This document shows positions 266 through 50,435 of a DNA stretch of 64,000 nucleotides, piece by piece; position 1 is the first letter of the stretch; every line of letters begins with the position of its first letter. The position numbers were made by a program, and so were the translations under genes. The notes under the pieces were generated by a model. That model was not told where the DNA came from. It saw only the letters and a list, made by a program, of their open reading frames with translations, and did no database searches. Origin of the DNA: an uncultured Anaeroplasmataceae bacterium. GTDB taxonomy: Bacteria > Bacillota_I > Bacilli_A > Acholeplasmatales > Anaeroplasmataceae. The stretch is taken from assembly GCA_944325695.1 (NCBI GenBank), contig CALVBA010000005.1, positions 1-64,000 of the forward strand, in the 5' to 3' direction.

Positions 266-341
266 TGGTGGGACCTAAGGGACTCGAACCCTTGACCCAA
301 TGATTAAGAGTCATTTGCTCTACCAACTGAGCTAAGGTCCC
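266..341 (-). tRNA. tRNA-Lys (anticodon CUU)
   Basis: A complete [15 protein letters not shown] on the minus strand. The acceptor stem is GGGACCT/AGGTCCC, the D-arm is GCTCAGTTGGTAGAGC, and the anticodon stem AATGA/TCATT encloses a CTCTTAA loop, giving anticodon CTT, which reads AAG. The T-arm is GGGTTCGAGTCCC. The discriminator base is A and the 3' CCA is encoded (266-268). The gene is a single tRNA and not part of a visible cluster. A terminator hairpin follows at 223-248. Confidence 0.95.
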
Positions 342-35118: not shown

Positions 35119-35415
35119 GTGATATTAGTTTTAGGGAGACCTGGAAGTGGAAAGACTAAAAAGATGTTAGAATTGAGTGCTATAAACAATATTCCTCTTC
35201 TATGTGAATCAGAAGCGCGTAAAATGCGTTTATTGATTAAGGCTGAAGGTTATAATTTGAATATACCAACACCAATAGTTTTAGGGGAAGAAGTAGCAAG
35301 TAATCAAAAAGTTTATATCGATGATATTAAACGTGTTTTAGAAGTGGCATTAAATATTCAAGTTGAAGCTATTTCGGTAAATGAATTAGATAGTGATGAA
35401 GTAATAAAATTATAA
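35119..35415 (+). CDS. Tiny P-loop protein of unknown function (98 aa)
   Basis: Begins MILVLGRPGSGKTKKML, a perfect Walker A (GRPGSGKT, residues 6-13). The hydrophobic strand KVYIDDIKRVL (about 64-74) looks like Walker B. At 98 residues it has room for only the core strands of a P-loop fold, so it may need a partner or dimerise. GTG start with GGGAGG (35105-35110). It lies between ftsZ and spoIIGA, bounded by its own terminator. I know no named family. An analogous gene is not part of this locus in B. subtilis (where bpr lies there). Confidence 0.6.
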   Translation: MILVLGRPGSGKTKKMLELSAINNIPLLCESEARKMRLLIKAEGYNLNIPTPIVLGEEVASNQKVYIDDIKRVLEVALNIQVEAISVNELDSDEVIKL

Positions 35416-35436
35416 ACACATGATTATTCATGTGTT
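35415..35436 (+). terminator. Terminator after the P-loop gene
   Basis: AACACATGA (35415-35423) / TCATGTGTT (35428-35436), TTAT loop, seven T. Confidence 0.85.
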
Positions 35437-35504
35437 TTTTTATTTGGGCATGAAAAAACAATTTTTTTATATCTAATCAAGTATGATAGAAGTTGGTGAT
35501 AGAA

Positions 35505-36172
35505 ATGGTTATTTATATTGAAGAAGTTTTAGCAGTTAATGCAGTTGTTTTTATTTTTACATGTACGATGATTTATTTGATTAACAATCAAAAAAAGGGT
35601 TTAGGATTATTATTGGAGGTGTTATTGATTTAATTTTATGCTTTGTATCTTTAAATTATAATACTAAACATTTAGGATTAGTTATCGTGATAATAGTTTC
35701 TATGATTTCGTGTTTAAATTTAAAGATGATGGTTGAATTTATTTTTTTGAATTATATTGTTTTAGGACAATATCATCTTTTAAGAGATTTGCTGAATAAA
35801 AAAACAGCTTTATTAGTAACGATAATTGGATTATACTTACTATTTAAAAAAATATACCGGCATTATTTTGCAAAAATTGAAGTTAAAAAGTTTTATGATG
35901 TCGTAATTAATAATCAAAAGATAAAAGCCTATCTTGATACGGGAAATGAAGTTAATTATCATGGAATTGCGGTGTGCTTTACTAATGATATAAGGTTATT
36001 AGAAAAATTTTATAAAACCATTTCCATTGCAACAGCAAATGGAATTACGAAAATAGATTTATATATTTGTAGTTGTTTTGAAATTAATGCGAAAATAAAA
36101 ACAATTTATTTAGCGTATTTAGATACTCCATATAAAATGATAGTGGGGTTAGATATATTTTTAGGGGGATAA
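35505..36172 (+). CDS. spoIIGA: Pro-sigma-E protease SpoIIGA, interrupted by a -1 frame shift
   Basis: Membrane aspartic protease that activates SigE in the mother cell. ATG 35505 begins MVIYIEEVLAVNAVVFIFTC, typical of SpoIIGA membrane segments, but this frame stops at 35631. The protein continues in the -1 frame: after the A7 run (35590-35596), GFRIIIGGVIDLI and four or five membrane helices lead to the protease half. That half has the active-site motif YLDTGN (about 35931-35948) and a final MIVGLDIFLGG. Joined length is about 222 residues (B. subtilis about 309). The break sits at A-AAA-AAG, the dnaX-type slippery heptamer. It could be programmed frameshifting, transcript slippage, a sequencing indel or a real mutation. 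sigE starts one base after the stop. Confidence 0.75.
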
Positions 36173-36173
36173 G

Positions 36174-36848
36174 ATGTTAATAAGACTATTTGTAAAAAAG
36201 ATGTATTATATAAAAAATAATTTTGTTTTACCAGAACCTTTAAATGATAAGGATGAATTAGAATGTTTATTACTTGTTCAAGAAGGTAATTTAGAAGCGC
36301 GAAATAAGTTAATTGAGCATAATATGCGACTAGTGGTATTTATAGCTAAACGTTTTGAAACACCTAAGGCACAATTAGAGGATTTAGTCTCAATTGGTTC
36401 TATGGGTTTGATTAAAGGAATAAACACTTTTAAACTTGATAAAAATATTAAACTAGCTACTTATGCATCACGTTGTATTGAAAATGAAATATTAATGTTT
36501 TTAAGAAAAATGCAAAAGATGAAAGGTGAACTATCGTTAGATGAAACCTTAAACGTTGATTCAGATGGAAATGAATTATTATTACAAGATATTTTAGGAA
36601 GTGATGATTTCTTTTTTGATGAATTATTAGAAGATGAACGGAAAAAATTTATGTATGCATGTATTGAAAAACTATCCAAAAGAGAAAAAGAAATTATGGT
36701 ATTACGGTATGGGTTATATAATAATAACTCTATGACACAAAAAGAAGTAGCAGTTTATTTGGGGATATCACAATCTTACATCTCTCGACTAGAAAAAAAG
36801 ATTATTGACAACATCAAAGAAGAAATTCTTAGTAAGATAACCTTTTAA
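36174..36848 (+). CDS. sigE: Sporulation sigma factor SigE with very short pro-sequence (224 aa)
   Basis: Early mother-cell sigma factor. Region 2 is unmistakable: NLEARNKLIEHNMRLVVFIAKRFE, LEDLVSIGSMGLIKGINTF and KLATYASRCIENEILMFLRK. SLDETLNVDSDGNELLLQDILG and the region 4 helix QKEVAVYLGISQSYISRLEKKI follow. The SpoIIGA-SigE-SigG order supports SigE over the similar SigK. Aligned at YYI, only ten residues (MLIRLFVKKM) precede the mature start, against nearly thirty in B. subtilis. An in-frame TAG at 36162 rules out a longer form. The start site GGGGGATA (36164-36171) overlaps the spoIIGA stop. Confidence 0.92.
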   Translation: MLIRLFVKKMYYIKNNFVLPEPLNDKDELECLLLVQEGNLEARNKLIEHNMRLVVFIAKRFETPKAQLEDLVSIGSMGLIKGINTFKLDKNIKLATYASRCIENEILMFLRKMQKMKGELSLDETLNVDSDGNELLLQDILGSDDFFFDELLEDERKKFMYACIEKLSKREKEIMVLRYGLYNNNSMTQKEVAVYLGISQSYISRLEKKIIDNIKEEILSKITF

Positions 36849-36915
36849 AATGAATAAAATACCATTAATAAATAATTATACATTAAACGCAGATACTAAT
36901 ATTGGAGGCGATTTA

Positions 36916-37689
36916 ATGTATAAAGTAGAAATAACAGGAATTGATACATCAAAGTTAGAAGTTTTATCAAACGATGTAATGAATGATTTACTATATCAGA
37001 TTAAAAATAATCAAGATATCGATGCGCGTAATAAAATGATAAAAGGAAATTTAAAGTTAGTTTTAAGTGTTTTAAAAAAATTTAATAATCGTAAAGAAAA
37101 TGTTGATGACTTATTCCAAGTTGGATGCATTGGTTTGATGAAGGCAATTGATAATTTTGATTTATCACATAATGTTCGATTTTCTACGTATGCTGTTCCG
37201 ATGATCATTGGTGAAATAAGAAGACATCTAAGAGATAATGGAATGATTAGAGTTTCTCGAAGTTTAAAAGATATCGCATATAAAGCCATTGGATTAAAAG
37301 AACAACACTTAAGAGAACATCAAACAGAGATGACACTAAAAGAAATTGCTGATGTGTTGATGGTTGAAGAATCTGATGTAATAATGGCTTTAGAAGCTAT
37401 TCAAGATACTGTATCGATGAGCAAACCCATCTATGATAACGGAGGAGATGTAATTGAGTTATCTGATCAATTAGGTGCTAATGATGAAACAATGGAAAAC
37501 TTTATTCGTGATAAAATGTTAAATGATGCATTTAAACATCTTAATAAACGCGAAAAAAGGATAATTTATAGTCGATATTACGATGATAAAACACAAACAG
37601 AAATTGCTTTAGAACTGGGAATAAGTCAAGCACAAGTATCTAGATTAGAGAAAAATGCTTTAAAGACGATGTATGAGGTTCTAAAATAA
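36916..37689 (+). CDS. sigG: Late forespore sigma factor SigG (257 aa)
   Basis: The start YKVEITGIDTSKLEVLSNDVM matches the SigG N-terminus (KVEICGVDTSKLPVLKN). Region 2 DDLFQVGCIGLMKAIDNFDLSHNVRFSTYAVPMIIGEIRRHLRDNGMIRVSRSLKD is nearly identical to SigG. Region 4 ends GISQAQVSRLEKNALKTM. GGAGG (36904-36908) fixes ATG 36916. The ATG at 36850 would add 22 unconserved residues and leaves no room for a promoter. In B. subtilis a sigma-F promoter lies between sigE and sigG. I find no convincing one in the 67-base gap. Confidence 0.95.
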   Translation: MYKVEITGIDTSKLEVLSNDVMNDLLYQIKNNQDIDARNKMIKGNLKLVLSVLKKFNNRKENVDDLFQVGCIGLMKAIDNFDLSHNVRFSTYAVPMIIGEIRRHLRDNGMIRVSRSLKDIAYKAIGLKEQHLREHQTEMTLKEIADVLMVEESDVIMALEAIQDTVSMSKPIYDNGGDVIELSDQLGANDETMENFIRDKMLNDAFKHLNKREKRIIYSRYYDDKTQTEIALELGISQAQVSRLEKNALKTMYEVLK

Positions 37690-50195: not shown

Positions 50196-50435
50196 GCAAA
50201 TTAATAACAATTACTGTGAACTAGACACGTATTTAAAATAATATTTTTTAGCGAACTTGGGATGGTGCAAGCCAAGGAAAATATTTTTAAATATATCACT
50301 AGGGAGTACTATACTGATATGTAGGATATAGCGTCTTTCCACGTTACGGATTTTAAGTGCCGATTTTTTATCGGAATTAAGGTGGTACCGCGGTTATTTT
50401 CGCCCTTAGGATTGAATCTTAAGGGCTTTTTATTA
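50196..50435 (+). promoter_or_regulatory. T-box riboswitch (isoleucine) controlling ileS
   Basis: The distal stem I segment GGGATGGTGCAAGCC (50259-50273), a specifier triplet ATC (50295-50297), the conserved T-box AAGGTGGTACCGCG (50379-50392) and a strong terminator GCCCTTA...TAAGGGC (50402-50426) with a T-run are all present in order. Uncharged tRNA-Ile would pair with the specifier and the T-box bulge and let transcription continue. The specifier was placed by eye and agrees with the downstream gene. Confidence 0.92.

Follow-up and report, generated by a model that had tools for sequence, protein, structure and literature searches.

SpoIIGA cleaves pro-sigma-E on a SpoIIR signal from the forespore and switches on the mother-cell programme. 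In Bacillus subtilis, removal of the first 17 residues yields a SigE that does not need SpoIIGA for activity in vivo (PMC10141391), and Clostridioides difficile, which has no processing protease for sigma-K, makes this factor without a pro-sequence (PMC3789822). Sporulation genes have repeatedly been lost in the orders Acholeplasmatales, RF39 and RFN20 (PMC10868615). A review by Atkins and colleagues (PMC5009743) attributes programmed -1 slippage at the heptamer A_AAA_AAG of Escherichia coli dnaX to weak pairing of the sole tRNA-Lys with AAG, and suggests a second tRNA gripping AAG as a possible reason for the different route taken in Thermus.

Here we describe a spoIIGA gene that is split between two reading frames at a run of seven A. 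The window (the whole stretch of DNA analysed, 64,000 nucleotides) is contig C5 of a 1.34 Mb draft genome in 56 contigs, with 97% completeness and 27.8% G+C. The genome comes from an uncultured bacterium related to wall-less bacteria, probably of the Anaeroplasmataceae or a neighbouring family of the Acholeplasmatales, to judge by the very small size of genomes across its order and by PMC10868615. The reading we favour, and consider somewhat probable, is that the split is a recent and genuine indel in the A run, perhaps tolerated as sigma-E depends less on SpoIIGA. We infer three parts of this reading: the presence of the indel in the living population, its recency, and the bypass of processing by sigma-E.

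The split gene and its neighbours

The gene order around the split is ftsZ, a 98-codon ORF, a terminator, spoIIGA, sigE and sigG, with the following features:

35414..35437, forward strand: terminator-like hairpin that separates spoIIGA from the small ORF before it
35505..35633, forward strand: 5' part of spoIIGA in the 0 frame, 42 codons encoding the first membrane helix, from the ATG at 35505 to a TAA stop at 35631-35633
35585..36172, forward strand: remainder of spoIIGA in the -1 frame, with the membrane part, the DTGN aspartic-protease motif and a C-terminal GLD motif
35589..35599, forward strand: frame-change site C-A7-GGG, with A_AAA_AAG at 35591-35597 in phase with the 0 frame
36174..36848, forward strand: sigE, intact, 224 aa, matching NCBIfam PRK08301 at E 5e-84 (below the curated cut-off), 60-67% identical to family relatives
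36850..37689, forward strand: sigG, intact, matching NCBIfam PRK08215 at E 4e-106 (slightly below the curated cut-off), the sole SigF/SigG-type sigma factor found in the genome

An earlier note, made from the letters of the window and their open reading frames, had described this frame split, and our recount agrees with its coordinates: the run at 35590-35596 is seven A, flanked by C at 35589 and GGG at 35597-35599, and the 0-frame codons at the join are CAA-AAA-AAG (35589-35597). In the -1 frame, 195 codons stay open (35585 to 36169) up to a stop at 36170-36172, with a position-specific G+C of 0.31/0.24/0.18, a coding-like composition. Because the terminator-like hairpin precedes spoIIGA, spoIIGA-sigE probably has its own promoter. 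The ORF at 35119-35415 (98 codons) between ftsZ and spoIIGA starts with a Walker-A-like GRPGSGKT and has no Pfam or NCBIfam match. Elsewhere in the window, a T-box leader lies at 50207-50410 (Rfam RF00230).

A -1 shift at the heptamer gives a product of 222 residues, in which DTGN at residue 145 is preceded by four hydrophobic segments in the hydropathy plot. Against a profile built from the SpoIIGA proteins of 17 relatives this shifted product scored 64.5 bits (E 8e-19) over residues 3-221; scored alone, the -1 part gave 55.6 bits and the 5' part a weak 7.8 bits. The alignment of SpoIIGA homologues across the join, which had been proposed as a check, was gap-free with the shifted product. The shifted product had no match to Pfam PF03419 (Peptidase_U4) at E<=1, nor did any protein of the genome at E<=0.1, whereas 18 relatives' SpoIIGA pass the cut-off of this family. 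A match to Pfam DUF2955 scored below that family's cut-off and was set aside. The gene lies directly upstream of sigE, in a spoIIGA-sigE-sigG cluster, and this position together with the profile match bears out the name spoIIGA given to it at the outset; by these alignments the split gene is a diverged SpoIIGA homologue.

The locus is complete in 18 relatives, namely 17 genomes of the family and the genome L039, and in each of them the gene is in a single frame, so that relatives are intact where one lesion is found here, as would be the case for a recent pseudogene. sigE itself is present in 20 of 55 family genomes. The split allele was seen once, in what is the single genome of its species and genus in the comparison. 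A search of genome contigs gave no relative for the -1 frame protein and, with SigE as query, L039 as the nearest, at 64%, with no close genome; a search of viral contigs returned distant sigma factors only.

Decoding at the A7 run

The first possibility raised for this locus was a dnaX-type programmed frameshift that gates SigE activation, which would place a developmental sigma factor under frameshift control; a narrow literature search found no precedent for such control. The site has the form of a slippery heptamer (X_XXY_YYZ), insofar as A_AAA_AAG at 35591-35597 is in phase with the ATG at 35505. The further evidence does not support programming. Neither A7 nor AAAAAAG occurs at the homologous codons of any of the 18 relatives, none of which is of the same genus. 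A programmed site conserved across the family is excluded on these alignments, an exclusion that does not reach a site confined to this genus. Inspected by eye, the 30 bases that precede the site contain nothing like AGGAG, in keeping with what the earlier note had said of an upstream Shine-Dalgarno, and GGAGGT at 35615-35620 lies downstream, the wrong side for a stimulator. A stable downstream stem-loop was not significant against shuffled sequences in any of four stretches (z +0.76, -1.12, +1.16 and +1.30, in a model that does not include pseudoknots).

The genome also encodes a lysine tRNA for AAG:

266..341, reverse strand: tRNA-Lys with anticodon CUU, an AAG-specific reader

This tRNA is expected, by analogy, to grip AAG and so to work against slippage at A_AAA_AAG (mechanism per PMC5009743), and the dnaX situation of a sole tRNA-Lys(UUU) does not apply here. 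Nor does the organism avoid the heptamer, since the 734 homologue-supported ORFs hold 98 in-frame copies against 88.3 +/- 9.0 expected from synonymous shuffles; genome-wide there are 159 in-frame occurrences in 143 predicted ORFs. Heptamers that lack stimulators gave, in E. coli, no more than ~10 times background (PMC4066793). Transcriptional slippage is known from runs of nine A (PMC5009743), and the present run of seven falls short of the approximately nine or more A or T at which it would be looked for.

A weaker form of recoding would need no dedicated signals: some ribosomes, by a -1 shift at A_AAA_AAG, or some transcripts would restore the frame, and a low amount of SpoIIGA would suffice for, or limit, sigma-E activation. 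Consistent with this, the in-phase heptamer is of the E. coli dnaX type (PMC5009743), the -1 frame is unbroken, no gap is needed to align the fused product and the divergence of SpoIIGA is not accelerated; a low SpoIIGA level might be enough. The same observations that argue against programming, from the heptamer found in 0 of 18 relatives to the tRNA-Lys(CUU), the lack of avoidance and the short run, also weigh against such productive slippage, and we regard it as distinctly unlikely. Slightly more doubtful again is the proposal that A7 acts as a lineage-specific decoding throttle, in which rare -1 shifts or transcript slippage would give a trickle of SpoIIGA that, with the short pro-sequence, resets the timing of sigma-E. 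If true, a leaky checkpoint would take the place of a proteolytic one in the control of sporulation.

As a separate observation, a dnaX-like gene of this genome, picked by motif (G000:C1:94896-96584), has an A9 run at about nt 1198 (codon 399) with stops nearby in both other frames. This A9 resembles the site in Thermus dnaX at which slippage during transcription gives rise to the shorter product.

Homopolymer errors and run-length change

The split could also be an artefact of assembly or consensus, or reflect a mixed population, with a wrong or minority length of the A run recorded and the organism mostly carrying a single-frame gene. The genome is a 56-contig draft, probably metagenome-derived, the lesion is exactly a homopolymer indel, and the remainder of spoIIGA and of the pathway is intact, all of which would fit. 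Against this, we performed a census of the whole genome versus approximately three quarters of the relative G017 (676 G017 proteins with matches, ~700 comparable genes). A/T runs of length 7 and above number ~1,200, yet the joins inspected revealed no further homopolymer break due to a single indel.

Seven candidate frame joins were listed and the main ones inspected base by base, leaving out two joins that overlap one weak repetitive match on contig C22 and three that came from a more sensitive search. The cmk/rpsA and methyltransferase/esterase joins proved to be separate genes that are fused in G017 rather than frame breaks, and one further join, antisense to an ATP-synthase boundary, was rejected. 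The sole broken gene found, at C3:25770-26690 (two joins), has decayed into a pseudogene interrupted by several stops and frame changes; its counterpart in G017 is the related gene G017_C2:92952-93818. When deletions were simulated in 150 runs, 58 (39%) were detected, or ~71 of 150 (47%) with the more sensitive search, and because of this detection power up to ~7 such breaks could be hidden from the census. Even so, a genome in which ~700 genes and ~1,200 runs yield no second break of this kind is unlikely to carry widespread homopolymer error. Sequencing error and a sporulation-loss mutation, both listed as options when the split was first noticed, thus both stay in consideration, with the census favouring a real indel; we rate the artefact or mixed-population explanation as unlikely, though not negligible.

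Reversible switching would be a further source of a single A-run change in an otherwise intact gene: the run would change length at replication, and the population would mix cells in which spoIIGA is on with cells in which it is off. Seven A is short for hypermutable switching. The run is also unremarkable in this genome, the predicted ORFs of which hold ~1,200 A7 and ~270 A8 runs, and the relatives are without an A7 run, so we consider switching very improbable. The same ORFs contain 11 A9 runs. Across the genome, A/T runs drop sharply with length (518 of length 8, 44 of length 9, 1 of length 10 and 1 of length 11), which looks as if longer runs were selected against.

Sigma-E and the sporulation pathway

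The gene downstream of the break departs from its homologues at its start:

36174..36206, forward strand: predicted sigma-E pro-sequence, MLIRLFVKKMY, ~11 residues before the aligned cleavage site

In relatives the corresponding stretch is 18-21 residues. The LPxPL motif follows the start codon after 18 residues here and after 24 or more in 96 other sigma-E proteins (taking the first in-frame ATG, an upper bound); counted from the innermost ATG, the distance is 9 residues versus 13 or more. The predicted pro-sequence is thereby the shortest of the 97 compared. An in-frame stop at 36162 limits any start further upstream, and the three codons between this stop and the ATG at 36174 are non-start codons. 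A missing acidic residue before the cleavage site was not used as evidence, as it is also missing in 36 of the 96 other proteins. The active B. subtilis SigE that is truncated by 17 residues retains ~10 residues before its cleavage site; by analogy, it is plausible that sigma-E here needs SpoIIGA less, and this lower need would plausibly explain how the break is tolerated.

The rest of the pathway is present. Spo0A, SpoIIR, SpoIVA, SigE, SigG and a SigK-like factor are all open reading frames in this genome, which leaves the spoIIGA break as a single lesion in a pathway that is otherwise in place. Across the family, the three genes scored (sigE, SpoIIR and Spo0A) largely co-occur. SpoIIIAE was not found in this genome, to which that search was confined. 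A 24-base match to sigE on contig C3 is antisense to another gene and looks like chance. This genome and each other sigE-bearing genome of the family have one SigF/SigG-type sigma factor, adjoining sigE (here window 36850-37689; G000:C51:2617-3291 is listed with it), and no separate SigF was found among them; sporulation here may use just one sigma factor in the forespore.

The divergence of SpoIIGA on this branch is proportionate to that of SigE (tree distance ratio 2.65, versus 2.53-2.62 elsewhere). Since divergence is proportionate and the -1 frame is still coding-like, with 195 codons open, constraint on spoIIGA appears to have lasted until recently. Identities and profile scores had suggested that SpoIIGA decayed faster than SigE on this branch, which the tree distances did not support, and the idea was dropped.

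The recent indel that we favour would leave a 42-residue 0-frame peptide with one membrane helix. Because the protease part would be missing from this peptide, most or all SpoIIR-triggered activation of pro-sigma-E would be lost. B. subtilis sigma-E works unprocessed with a pro-sequence about as short as the one of ~11 residues already predicted here, so that sigma-E may be active or partly active without SpoIIGA, and the break would be tolerated in a lineage that is loosening its sporulation controls. Two points speak against parts of this account: a long independence of sigma-E from SpoIIGA would be expected to have left more decay than one indel, and a length that needs no processing in B. 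subtilis may still need it in this organism. Provided that the indel is real, the locus shows the SpoIIGA checkpoint on its way out with the remaining sporulation programme still standing, and would be a testable case of a compartment-signalling protease becoming dispensable in lineages heading to spore loss. The indel itself is an ordinary kind of event; the predicted pro-sequence of sigma-E is the most unusual feature found, and its trimmed state, paired with a broken spoIIGA, is the part that merits a closer look.

The locus resembles E. coli dnaX in having A_AAA_AAG in the same phase, a shift in the -1 direction and a 0-frame stop nearby. It differs in that the spoIIGA site is without an upstream Shine-Dalgarno, significant downstream structure or conservation, in the AAG-specific tRNA-Lys gene, and in that the shift precedes the part of the protein that is essential. 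The B. subtilis SpoIIGA/pro-sigma-E module is matched in its spoIIGA-sigE-sigG order, N-terminal hydrophobic helices, DTGN aspartic-protease motif and the presence of SpoIIR, whereas here spoIIGA is frame-split, its shifted product misses PF03419 and the pro-sequence is ~11 residues rather than 27. The region of the tree is the one in which PMC10868615 described sporulation loss, with partial gene sets and repeated independent losses; that study scored gene presence, while the present case is a single lesion inside one regulatory gene. The sigma-K of C. difficile provides a precedent for the direction of change, in that both the pro-sequence of a mother-cell sigma factor and the protease that processes it were lost, although here the pair is sigma-E and SpoIIGA, the pro-sequence is shortened rather than absent, and the protease gene appears newly broken rather than missing.
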